Source of the DNA: Sporosarcina ureae
Lineage (GTDB): Bacteria; Bacillota; Bacilli; Bacillales_A; Planococcaceae
Reading direction: 5' to 3'
Assembly (NCBI RefSeq): GCF_002109325.1
Contig: NZ_CP015348.1
Location: 2,915,501 to 2,979,500 of the forward strand
DNA: 64,000 nt
Each line of letters opens with the position of its first letter. The stretch's first letter is position 1. The notes under the pieces are model-generated. The model ran no database searches. It was not told the origin of the DNA and was given only the letters and a program-made list of their open reading frames with translations. Positions 11,646-15,133 of the stretch are shown here, piece by piece. The translations under genes and the position numbers were made by a program.

Positions 11646-13313
11646 TTAAAGTTCCATGATGACAGGAAGAATCATTGGTTTACGCTTCGTTTTTTCATAT
11701 AAATATGGAACGAGTGTATCGATGATGTCGCCCTTTAAATTGTTGATGGAATCAGGTTTAGCAGCTAGTTTGCGCTGTAATGTCTTCGAAAGCATATACT
11801 GTGCTTCGTTGATCATTGCGCCTGATTCGCGCATGTAGACGAATCCACGTGAGATCAGGTCAGGACCGGATACTAAGCGATTCTTTTTCGTGTCGATTGT
11901 AGCGACTACAATAACTAGACCATCTTCAGAGAGGATTCGGCGGTCACGTAGCACGACGTTACCGATGTCGCCTATACCACTTCCATCAATATAGACATCG
12001 CCTGACGGTACGCGTCCTGCTAGTCTTGCTGTTGAATCAGTAAGTGCGAGGACGTCACCGTTCCCCATAATAAAGATATTATCAGGCTCGACGTCACAGT
12101 CTATCGCTAGTTGAGAGTGCATATTCATCATACGGTACTCACCGTGAATCGGCATGAAGTATTTAGGCTTAATTAAACGTAACATAAGCTTTTGCTCTTC
12201 CTGTGATCCGTGTCCGGATGTGTGGATGTTGTTCAATGGACCATGAATAACTTCTGCACCTGCACGGAACAGTGAGTTAATCGCTTTGTTGACACTTAGT
12301 GTGTTTCCTGGGATAGGTGAAGATGAGAAGATTACTGTATCACCAGGTTGAATTTGTACTTGTCTATGTGTACCGTTTGCGATACGTGATAAAGCTGCCA
12401 TCGGTTCACCTTGGCTACCCGTACATAAAATCATTACTTTGTTGGCAGGAAGACGATTAAGCGATTGAGCATCCACGAATAAATCTTTTGGAGCGTCAAT
12501 ATAACCTAGTTCGCGACCGATTGTGATGGCATTATCCATACTGCGACCAAAGACAGCGATTTTACGACCGAAGATCTGTGCTGATTCGATGACTTGTTGT
12601 AATCTGTGGATATTCGAAGCGAATGTAGCAAAAATAATTCGACCATCTACTGTACGGAAAATATCGTTTAAGCTTTCTCCTACTTTACGTTCAGACATTG
12701 TAAAGTTAGGCACTTCTGCATTCGTACTGTCTGATAATAGACAAAGTACGCCTTCGCTACCGATTTTCGCCATCTTATGCAAGTTAGCAGGTTCACCGAC
12801 TGGCGTGAAGTCGAATTTAAAGTCTCCTGTATGGACGATATTACCGGAAGGAGTTTTCACTACTACTCCGAATGCGTCAGGAATACTGTGCGTAGTTCTG
12901 AAGAATGACACTGCTGTTTTACGGAATTTAATAAAATCATCTTCTTCAATTTCATGAATTTCCGTTGTGCGCAATAATCCATGCTCTTCCAACTTATTGC
13001 GAAGTAATCCAATCGCGAGTTTACCGCCATAGACGGGAACATTCACTTTGCGCAATAGATAAGGGATGCCACCAATATGGTCTTCATGACCGTGTGTGAT
13101 GAAAAGTCCTTTGATCTTATCGATATTGCGTTCGAGATAAGTATAATCTGGAATTACATAGTCAATACCTAGTAATTCATCTTCTGGAAATTTGATTCCG
13201 GCGTCGATAATAATAATTTCATCTTGGAATTGGATACAATACGTATTTTTACCGATTTCACCTAGTCCGCCTAGGGCAAAAACAGCTGTTTCATTATTTT
13301 TAATAGATTTCAT
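11646..13313 (-). CDS. rnjA: Ribonuclease J1
   Basis: A 555-residue metallo-beta-lactamase/beta-CASP ribonuclease. The zinc motif is '[15 protein letters not shown]' (about residues 74-79), with 'HTGDFKFD' supplying further ligands. The beta-CASP motifs follow ('[16 protein letters not shown]', '[13 protein letters not shown]'), and the C-terminal RNase J domain ends the chain. It is a 5'-3' exonuclease and endonuclease central to mRNA turnover and 16S rRNA maturation in Bacillales. It begins three bases after the rpoY stop with a weak AGCAGG ribosome site, so it is translationally linked to rpoY, the same arrangement as B. subtilis ykzG-ykqC. Confidence 0.95.
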
Positions 13314-13316
13314 AAA

Positions 13317-13526
13317 TTAAACCTGCTCAATGTGGAAGGCTGGGGAAGCTTGTTCATAAGTTAAATGTTCGCCTTCCAACTTTTGCACGAATTCAATCAT
13401 TAGATCACGGTCTTTTAATCGATTCCGAACTTCTCTTTCGTTTTCAGCTTCTACGTACAAGCTAAGTGTGTTCTCGCGGACTGGAACTTCATGTACGTTT
13501 AAATGGTAATATACTTTGAAAATCAT
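13317..13526 (-). CDS. rpoY: RNA polymerase epsilon subunit RpoY
   Basis: A 69-residue protein ('MIFKVYYHLNVHEVPVRE' at the N-terminus), the same length as B. subtilis YkzG. It is a small auxiliary subunit that binds the core RNA polymerase of Firmicutes. The ATG at 13526 follows AAGGAGA by eight bases; the 17 extra upstream codons have no start signal. It is the first gene of the rpoY-rnjA transcript. Confidence 0.92.
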   Translation of the reverse strand: MIFKVYYHLNVHEVPVRENTLSLYVEAENEREVRNRLKDRDLMIEFVQKLEGEHLTYEQASPAFHIEQV

Positions 13527-13593
13527 GTTAAACTCTCCTTTTACGTTCGTAATAATACATATCATCAATAATAGCATGCAATTTCCCTAAAAT

Positions 13594-13623
13594 AAAGAAA
13601 AGCCCACCAATTACTTGGCGGGC
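13594..13623 (-). terminator. Terminator behind the 23-codon peptide gene
   Basis: GCCCACCA (13602-13609) and TGGCGGGC (13616-13623) pair with one G-T. On the minus strand TTTTCTTTATTTT follows. It starts nine bases after the stop of the small ORF. Confidence 0.75.
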
Positions 13624-13631
13624 GTAAAAGT

Positions 13632-13703
13632 CTAGGCAATCGTCTTTTTACCGAGCAGGCCATTAAGTCGTCTTAGCAGTTTGCGTTTTAGACGTTTATA
13701 CAT
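13632..13703 (-). CDS. Candidate 23-residue highly cationic peptide
   Basis: A tiny ORF. The peptide begins MYKRLKRKLLRR, continues LNGLLGKK and ends TIA. Nine of 23 residues are Lys or Arg and none are acidic; leucines are spaced as in an amphipathic helix. Three signals support it: AAGGAG ten bases before ATG 13703, a TTGACA/17/TACTGT promoter at 13726-13754, and a hairpin terminator at 13594-13623. The predicted transcript start falls at the ribosome site itself (about 13719), which is tight, so transcription from def is an alternative. It lies between def and rpoY, where B. subtilis has ykrA. I do not recognise it. Possible roles are a membrane-active or RNA-binding peptide, but no function is shown. 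Confidence 0.55.
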   Translation of the reverse strand: MYKRLKRKLLRRLNGLLGKKTIA

Positions 13704-13725
13704 GGCATCATCACTCCTTGACAAG

Positions 13726-13754
13726 ACAGTAACAGAAATTTCTCATCCTGTCAA
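13726..13754 (-). promoter_or_regulatory. Candidate SigA promoter of the small peptide gene
   Basis: TTGACA, exactly 17 bases, TACTGT on the minus strand, between the def stop and the peptide ORF. CTTGACA at its upstream edge is repeated inverted as TGTCAAG next to the ribosome site. Confidence 0.55.
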
Positions 13755-13765
13755 GTATAAACGCT

Positions 13766-14323
13766 TTACTCTCTGTCGAAAGCTGTAGCACCAGGTATTT
13801 CCTTGTAAGGAGAACTTTCATCAATGTGATCATAGAACATGATGCCGTTTAAGTGATCCAATTCATGCTGGAAAGCAATTGCTGGCAATCCTTTCAAACG
13901 CTTCTTAATAACATTTCCTTCCTTATCAAATGCTTTCACAGTAATTCTCGCGTAACGGGGAACATATCCCGGAACTTCGCGATCTACTGATAAACAGCCT
14001 TCGCCAGTTTCTATATAGGTCTTTTCGACAGAGTGACTAATAATCTTCGGATTAATTGCGATGAAGTTTTCCAGTAAATTCTCGCCGTCAGGTATATGCA
14101 GGGCGAAAATTCTTTTTGACGCATTTGTTTGGGGAGCAGCCAAGCCAATACCCGAACGTAAGCCGTACTTTTCACACAGTTCGTCGTCTTGGCTATTGAC
14201 GACATACTCCAATAAATTATCGCATAATTGACGATCTTCATTACTTAAAGGAAAGTCTACCTCTTTTGCTTTCAAGCGCAACGTCGGATGACCTTCACGA
14301 ATGATGTCTTTCATTAAAATCAT
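13766..14323 (-). CDS. def: Peptide deformylase
   Basis: A 185-residue metal-dependent deformylase removing the N-formyl group from nascent proteins. All three active-site motifs are present: 'GIGLAAPQ' (about residue 58), 'EGCLSV' with the metal cysteine (about 110) and 'QHELDH' with two metal histidines (about 152). The long insert between motifs 1 and 2 marks the type-2 enzymes of Gram-positives. ATG 14323 follows GAGGAAG. B. subtilis has its defB (ykrB) in this neighbourhood. Confidence 0.95.
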   Translation of the reverse strand: MILMKDIIREGHPTLRLKAKEVDFPLSNEDRQLCDNLLEYVVNSQDDELCEKYGLRSGIGLAAPQTNASKRIFALHIPDGENLLENFIAINPKIISHSVEKTYIETGEGCLSVDREVPGYVPRYARITVKAFDKEGNVIKKRLKGLPAIAFQHELDHLNGIMFYDHIDESSPYKEIPGATAFDRE

Positions 14324-14503: not shown

Positions 14504-15133
14504 ATGAAGAAAGTAGTTTGCACAATGTTCATACTGATTCTGTTAAGTGGTTGTTCAAAAGAGCCTACCATAGCGCAGCAATTCAGGGATTTCCTAATCG
14601 CTGTGAATGAAAAAGAAAATAAGGGGAACAACTTTGGAAGGAAGTTATACGAAAAAGAGCACAAAGAACAGGAGTTATTTATTCAACTAATGGAATTAAC
14701 TCAACAGCAATATCCAGAAGTGAAGCAGCGAGTAGTTGCATTGAAAAGATCTGTACGTGAACGGTCCATGTTGCTTGAAAAAGAGGAGAGTGCTGTTCGC
14801 GAGTCGAAGGAAACTATAGGGCAATTAGCTGAAAGTATGAATCAAAAGGGATTCACTAGCCAAGTAGAAGATGTAGTGGATGCACTTACTGAACGTTCAG
14901 GAATACATGAAGCTTTCATTTTGCAGTATAAAAAACTTTTAGATAGTCAAATGCAATTATATACGCAGCTTGAAGATCAATCGGTGCGTGAACTAGGACT
15001 TCAAAAACAAGTAAGTGAAGTAAATGATCTAATTGCTGCTAGTCAGCAAACTCTAATAGAGTTTAATGAGACGACTCGGGAAGTAAATCGATTAGCGAGT
15101 CGTACATCAAAAAGTTTAGAACAGCAAAAATAA
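14504..15133 (+). CDS. ykyA: YkyA-family lipoprotein
   Basis: A 209-residue secreted lipoprotein. The signal peptide 'MKKVVCTMFILILLSGCSKE' ends in a lipobox (LSGC, cysteine about residue 17). The mature part is almost wholly helical and charged, consistent with a coiled coil (Lys/Glu/Gln-rich, residues 40-205). It belongs to the YkyA putative cell-wall-binding lipoprotein family and sits immediately upstream of pdhA as in B. subtilis. ATG 14504 follows GAGGAGG. Function unknown; outer-face scaffolding is only a guess. Confidence 0.85.
   Translation: MKKVVCTMFILILLSGCSKEPTIAQQFRDFLIAVNEKENKGNNFGRKLYEKEHKEQELFIQLMELTQQQYPEVKQRVVALKRSVRERSMLLEKEESAVRESKETIGQLAESMNQKGFTSQVEDVVDALTERSGIHEAFILQYKKLLDSQMQLYTQLEDQSVRELGLQKQVSEVNDLIAASQQTLIEFNETTREVNRLASRTSKSLEQQK

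Follow-up and report, generated by a model that had tools for sequence, protein, structure and literature searches.

The small gene and its neighbours

The window analysed here is a stretch of 64,000 nucleotides from Sporosarcina ureae (contig NZ_CP015348.1, positions 2,915,501 to 2,979,500). Between the gene for peptide deformylase and those for the RNA polymerase epsilon subunit and RNase J1, it holds a very short gene with the following parts (window coordinates).

13766..14323, minus strand: def, peptide deformylase, the upstream neighbour (PF01327)
13749..13754, minus strand: -35 box TTGACA of the small gene, read from the sequence
13726..13731, minus strand: -10 box TACTGT of the small gene, weak (3 of 6 consensus bases)
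13710..13719, minus strand: extended Shine-Dalgarno AAGGAGTGAT (sequence, and a count of GGAG.?TGAT in leaders)
13632..13703, minus strand: 23-codon ORF, product MYKRLKRKLLRRLNGLLGKKTIA (sequence, conservation, codon test)
13592..13623, minus strand: intrinsic terminator, a 9-pair stem at 13623-13602 plus a T-rich tail (terminator scan)
13568..13576, minus strand: TGCTATTAT, which probably serves rpoY as the extended -10 of its own promoter (putative function)
13317..13526, minus strand: rpoY, RNA polymerase epsilon subunit, the downstream neighbour (PF07288)
11646..13313, minus strand: rnjA, RNase J1 (RNase J domains; full-length match to PDB 3zq4)

The two promoter boxes are separated by 17 nt. 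On the minus strand, the AAGGAG core of the Shine-Dalgarno sequence is at 13719-13714, the ORF runs from an ATG at 13703-13701 to a TAG at 13634-13632, and TTTTCTTTAT follows 3' of the hairpin at 13623-13602. The earlier note had listed a TTGACA/17/TACTGT promoter, AAGGAG, a 23-codon frame and a hairpin, and all of these are present on the minus strand between 13754 and 13592. Its description of the product as cationic and leucine-rich also holds (nine Lys/Arg, no Asp/Glu, six Leu), as does its view that the set is hard to obtain by chance: a degenerate gene pattern has one hit in the window and no hit in 100 shuffles. The peptide has a single match within its own whole genome. A gene for a YkyA-type cell-wall lipoprotein (PF10368) is found at 14504-15133, on the opposite strand to def.

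Distribution

A search of the family matched 254 of 261 genomes, or 253 after removal of a chance hit in one genome (G149). The 253 span 18 of the 19 genera, and among the matches listed all are full length. A broader order-level search covered the same 261 genomes. Within the 253 we read the loci of all 68 genomes of the window's genus and of 52 others at the sequence level. All 68 genus genomes carry the gene, and the identical peptide is present in Sporosarcina loci L162, L216, L224 and L234.

When 398 genomes of the class were searched with a profile, 153 matched at E up to 1, many of them only partially. We fetched the 27 full or near-full matches outside the family (E < 0.006), plus three weak ones. 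All 27, from 11 other families, are upstream of rpoY and rnjA. One of these loci (L101) encodes the peptide MLRKLRKKLRRQWNGMLRKKVIA and an RNase J1 that differs at 7 of 555 positions from PDB chain 3zq4, which we take to be RNase J1 of B. subtilis. Since this genome is close to B. subtilis and carries the peptide, the gene is present in the lineage of B. subtilis, as read in this relative rather than in strain 168 itself.

An order-free pattern scan of 84,980 species genomes found at least 119 copies, and the titles of the copies listed are all of Bacillaceae- or Planococcaceae-type genera. The patterned positions in these loci are conserved by construction, so the less biased evidence for conservation is the family search together with the codon test within the genus. 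A DNA search against plasmids found no match.

Eight loci were dropped before counting. L051, L052, L120 and L121 were rejected as chance matches that are not beside rpoY or contain stops (L051 is the G149 hit counted among the 254). L050 is a 25-codon form with a two-residue insertion, L122 is an extended form from family f41, and L079 and L091 fall outside the strict pattern. Loci L123-L142 and L297-L308 were used for the absence check only. The remaining 268 loci include duplicates, where the same genome occurs twice, so we give counts of distinct sequences where we have them.

Selection on the reading frame

The earlier note had proposed checking the frame by its conservation and by a synonymous-change test, and the frame is indeed kept, with changes that are almost all synonymous. 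The 68 genus genomes contain 56 distinct ORFs that encode 16 peptides. Among codon pairs with one difference, 12291 were synonymous and 1453 nonsynonymous, which is 89% synonymous versus 29% expected. The resulting ratio to expectation is 0.048 in frame. It is 1.77 and 13.4 in the two alternative forward frames, and the three reverse frames give 11.6, 0.28 and 4.6. The codon pairs are not independent, so the ratio is a measure and not a probability. Variable columns at codon positions 1, 2 and 3 number 7, 8 and 20 of 23. From these codon comparisons, we conclude that the 23-codon frame is evidently under strong purifying selection at the amino acid level.

Four-fold sites differ in 0.489 of comparisons in the small ORF and in 0.549 in rpoY. 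Divergence this near to that of rpoY argues that there is no strong RNA-level constraint within the ORF and that selection acts more on the peptide than on the RNA.

Promoter, leader and terminator

A promoter scan of the window did not list the TTGACA/TACTGT site, and among the 68 genus genomes TACTGT as a -10 box is found in the window's genome only. The comparison across genomes resolves this doubt. Within the genus, 32 of 68 genomes have TATAAT as the -10 box, and a promoter site matching at least 9 of 12 bases is at -50 to -53 in 68 of 68, while in a shuffled control such a site occurs anywhere in 13 of 68. Across all loci the promoter score is at least 9 in 233 of 268 (12 of 100 shuffled) and below 9 in 35, and in several B. 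subtilis- and B. pumilus-type leaders we saw no clear promoter by eye. In the loci with Trp at position 13 of the peptide (Trp13-type), the promoter spacer contains the motif TTGGACA, a possible operator, in 40 of 97 cases (for example L104, L143 and L199).

The -10 box usually ends 21-23 nt ahead of the ATG, which makes for a short leader that is nearly all Shine-Dalgarno sequence. Of the 192 distinct leaders of the small gene, 140 contain GGAG.?TGAT. By comparison, the motif is found before rpoY in 0 of 188 cases, before rnjA in 0 of 195, before def in 2 of 158 and before the ORFs of the window in 0 of 57. In 29 of 268 loci the leader contains AAGGAGATGATCC, which is predicted to pair with 12 of the 13 bases of what we take to be the 3' end of 16S rRNA. 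The median duplex energy with that end is -12.5 kcal/mol for the small gene, versus -9.4 for rpoY, -7.1 for rnjA and -10.4 for def. The window's own leader is ordinary in this respect, at 16th of 57 window ORFs. Extended Shine-Dalgarno pairing has been reported for S. aureus (PMC13009471).

A strict terminator scan was positive in 187 of 234 distinct loci, leaving 47 without. In the 187, the stem starts a median of 7 nt past the stop codon (range 0-67 nt). The T-rich tail is present in all 68 genus genomes, and the strict hairpin scan fails there for L075 and L077. An inverted repeat, TTGACA..TGTCAAGGAG, around the promoter and Shine-Dalgarno sequence (176-nt fold, z -3.7) was rejected as a conserved element because only 13 of 68 genus genomes have it, the window's included.

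The small gene thus has its own predicted promoter, ribosome-binding site and terminator.

Linkage to rpoY and rnjA

Among the matches listed by the pattern scan that have enough sequence, rpoY is downstream on the same strand in 116 of 116, at 175-731 nt. When all 268 loci are considered, this holds for 265, and the other three end too early. We found def upstream in 227 of 268 loci, at distances of 58-2700 nt. With rpoY constant and the distance to def variable, the linkage is with rpoY-rnjA. The placement between def and rpoY-rnjA given in the earlier note therefore describes the window correctly, but in other genomes the partner that stays constant is rpoY-rnjA. In Bacillus infantis (L211 3710-3776, minus strand) an Rfam Bacillaceae-1 RNA (RF01690, 87 bits) is situated between the small gene and rpoY.

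The spacer holds promoter-like elements of its own. Loci of the window's own family type encode peptides with Tyr2 or Leu/Met13. Among their distinct spacers 110 contain TTTATTTTA, and in every one of the 110 TG.TA comes after it, which reads as an extended -10 for rpoY. Only 3 of 93 distinct spacers of the Trp13 type contain TTTATTTTA; there, a -10 of the form TATAATAGAA is often seen by eye close to rpoY. Of 265 loci, 124 retain TTTTCTTTATTTT behind the terminator (minus strand, 13601-13588 of the window). Taken with bases about 17 nt further on, this sequence can be read as a promoter that serves rpoY in the sense direction and, for some of the genomes, also as one that runs antisense into the small gene. 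These elements make it likely that rpoY has an independent promoter. The small gene accordingly looks like the stand-alone unit that the earlier note described, with its own promoter, a terminator in most distinct loci and a separate promoter-like sequence for rpoY.

Losses and longer forms

Eight of the 261 family genomes show no copy (G021-G024, G062, G148, G149 and G247). In G021-G024, which belong to one genus and have rpoY genes 92-99% identical to each other, the promoter and terminator are kept and the frame is gone. G062 keeps the terminator alone, without the frame. Neither the frame nor the conserved stem was found in G148 and G149, and G247 is a fragmentary assembly with no rpoY match either. 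The earlier note had set a hairpin kept without its frame against its own proposal. This is what we see in four of 261 family genomes, with a fifth that keeps the terminator alone; we read it as secondary loss in these genomes.

The remnant in G021-G024 (L127-L130) is upstream of rpoY, where a promoter TTTACA..TAWAAT and the conserved terminator bracket a transcript of 84-85 nt that has no ORF. A small hairpin, TTAGC..GCTAA/GCTAG, recurs in the four. The remnant is either a recent loss or a remodelled small RNA.

Outside the family, we found no such ORF before rpoY in families f4, f9, f16, f20, f26, f34, f40, f45, f46, f47 and f49 (1-4 genomes read per family), nor in one of two genomes of f8. 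Families f41 (L125, L131, L299) and f42 (L306) have longer versions of the peptide, with 32-43 residues, in which additional C-terminal residues replace the K-K-x-I-A end. In f59 a basic 27-residue ORF precedes rpoY and may be related to the peptide.

Properties of the peptide

Net charge is between +7 and +11 in 126 distinct peptides and is +9 in 79 of them, while Lys and Arg swap among homologues. Lys20, Ile22 and Ala23 do not vary among the 68 genus genomes and are present in 122, 115 and 121 of 122 distinct peptides, a conservation that is partly by construction. Structure prediction, made for one 30-residue sequence in which seven upstream residues precede the peptide, gave a helix across peptide residues 1-18 with a mean pLDDT of 82. 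The hydrophobic moment has a mean of 0.51 and a mean z of 1.6 versus shuffles, which is a modest excess. The peptide is thus predicted to be an amphipathic cationic helix.

None of 20 members of the peptide family matched NCBIfam, Pfam or PHROGs, the best PDB chain had an E of 1.3, and no Rfam family matches the small gene. The literature searched, outside subscription papers and supplements, held no description recognisable as the gene, and the peptide strings had no match there; a listing in an anonymous small-ORF catalogue is possible. We consider the peptide to be a family of its own among bacterial micro-proteins.

Possible functions

We are almost certain that this is a real and expressed micro-protein gene. 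The explanation that we favour, with somewhat better than even confidence, is that its product acts in trans. Once released, the peptide would be a cationic amphipathic helix that works in the cytoplasm, with its leucine/tryptophan face packed onto a protein or the surface of a membrane while its roughly nine Lys/Arg residues touch phospholipid head groups or RNA. We would give about half of our confidence in this explanation to docking on the membrane, as opposed to a ribonucleoprotein or protein. We favour a trans-acting helix because the unit looks independent of rpoY and yet is never found away from rpoY-rnjA. For the same reason the target is probably, though we hold this less firmly, part of the machinery of RNA synthesis or decay: RNase J1, RNA polymerase or a membrane-associated decay network. 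Adjacency to rpoY-rnjA fits a role in cis equally well.

Leader peptide. Such a cis role is the main rival, and we consider it unlikely. Translation of the 23 codons would decide between termination of transcription at the hairpin and read-through of RNA polymerase into rpoY-rnjA, either by way of the nascent chain in the exit tunnel or by ribosome release at the stop codon. The constant placement and the unusual extended Shine-Dalgarno sequence are in keeping with this. A chain of 23 residues would remain inside the ribosome tunnel, and with the stem at a median of 7 nt past the stop a ribosome halted there could block it. TnaC-type leaders are alike in length, in a stop near a terminator and in position before an operon. 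They differ from what we see here in the separate promoter-like element of rpoY, the variable distance and the extended frames of f41 and f42. The details of the locus also argue against a leader peptide: the spacers reach about 650 nt, L211 has a small RNA between the two genes, and 47 of the 234 loci have no terminator in the strict scan. The extended frames mean that the position of the stop is not fixed, and its distance to the terminator varies from 0 to 67 nt. The interchange of Lys and Arg speaks against codon-specific attenuation, and in B. subtilis transcription outruns the ribosomes.

Toxin or antimicrobial peptide. A membrane-active peptide of a type I toxin-antitoxin system, or an antimicrobial peptide, would have the cationic amphipathic composition seen here. 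Type I toxins are likewise short amphipathic peptides, and there is a possible antisense promoter in the window's own family. Antisense promoter-like sites are present in 42 of 68 genus genomes versus 28 of 68 shuffled. In 23 of 68 a site of at least 9 of 12 bases is at +134 to +142 (TTTATA or TTCATA, 17 nt, TAAAAT), pointing into the terminator and the ORF, with no single position exceeding 8 of 68. In other loci of the Leu/Met13 type, the pair ATTTTA, 17 nt, TATAA/T is found in 55 of 75 distinct spacers. However, the antisense pair of the own-family spacers, with a spacing of 16-18 nt, is made from the same bases as the extended -10 that precedes rpoY in all 110 spacers. Its -35 matches at 4 of 6 bases in most non-Sporosarcina spacers (54 of 60) and in fewer of the Sporosarcina type (21 of 50), where the other 29 match at only 3 of 6. 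The bases appear to fit a sense promoter for rpoY better than an antisense one, although an antisense RNA in the own family is possible. The element is nearly absent from Trp13-type loci, as the 3 of 93 spacers indicate. Also unlike such toxins, the gene is present as a single copy at one housekeeping locus, and almost all genomes of the family have it. PHROGs gave no match. Taking all of this together, we think a toxin or antimicrobial peptide improbable.

Small RNA. Slightly less probable still is a dual-function or purely regulatory RNA of about 130 nt in which the ORF is secondary. In its favour, four genomes of a single genus have lost the frame and kept the promoter and terminator, and the leader sequence is conserved. 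On the other side, synonymous sites in the ORF are nearly as variable as those of rpoY, and Rfam has no match.

Ribosome sensor. RNase J1 also matures 16S rRNA, and the gene could be a sensor of 30S subunits that tunes RNase J1. The extended complement to 16S rRNA would capture free 30S subunits, and the basic peptide, nascent or released, would signal to rpoY-rnjA. We regard this as a long shot.

An untranslated ORF that arose by chance inside a conserved stretch is the least probable explanation of all, as selection is specific to the frame that all 68 genus genomes carry.

Comparison with known small proteins

The trans-acting helix that we favour has some company among small proteins. SpoVM of Bacillus, a sporulation protein, is a 26-residue amphipathic helix. 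It too has a stand-alone gene, is of similar size, comes from related bacteria and forms a basic amphipathic helix; the likeness drawn here is one of size and helix. Unlike SpoVM, the small gene is tied to rpoY-rnjA and is also present in Planococcus, Bhargavaea and Caryophanon, which are mostly non-spore-forming. The tiny ribosomal proteins eL41 and bTHX are also of 23-26 residues and very basic, a likeness of size and charge. They differ from the peptide in its conserved hydrophobic face, and the ORF was not found in several families that have rpoY.

For the putative target, a precedent comes from SR1P and SR7P, which tune RNase J1 and RNase Y via GapA and enolase (PMC8152036). Both belong to B. 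subtilis and are small proteins with a link to RNA decay, as the candidate here may be. They differ in that dual-function RNAs encode them; for our peptide, a link to GapA, enolase or an RNase is hypothetical.

A protein of 23 residues that is shared by 12 or more families of Bacilli, with a close B. subtilis relative among its carriers, and that has no match in the family libraries searched would be very small and yet broadly conserved. Its constant position before rpoY-rnjA may offer a handle on the regulation or localisation of RNase J1 and the epsilon subunit of RNA polymerase.
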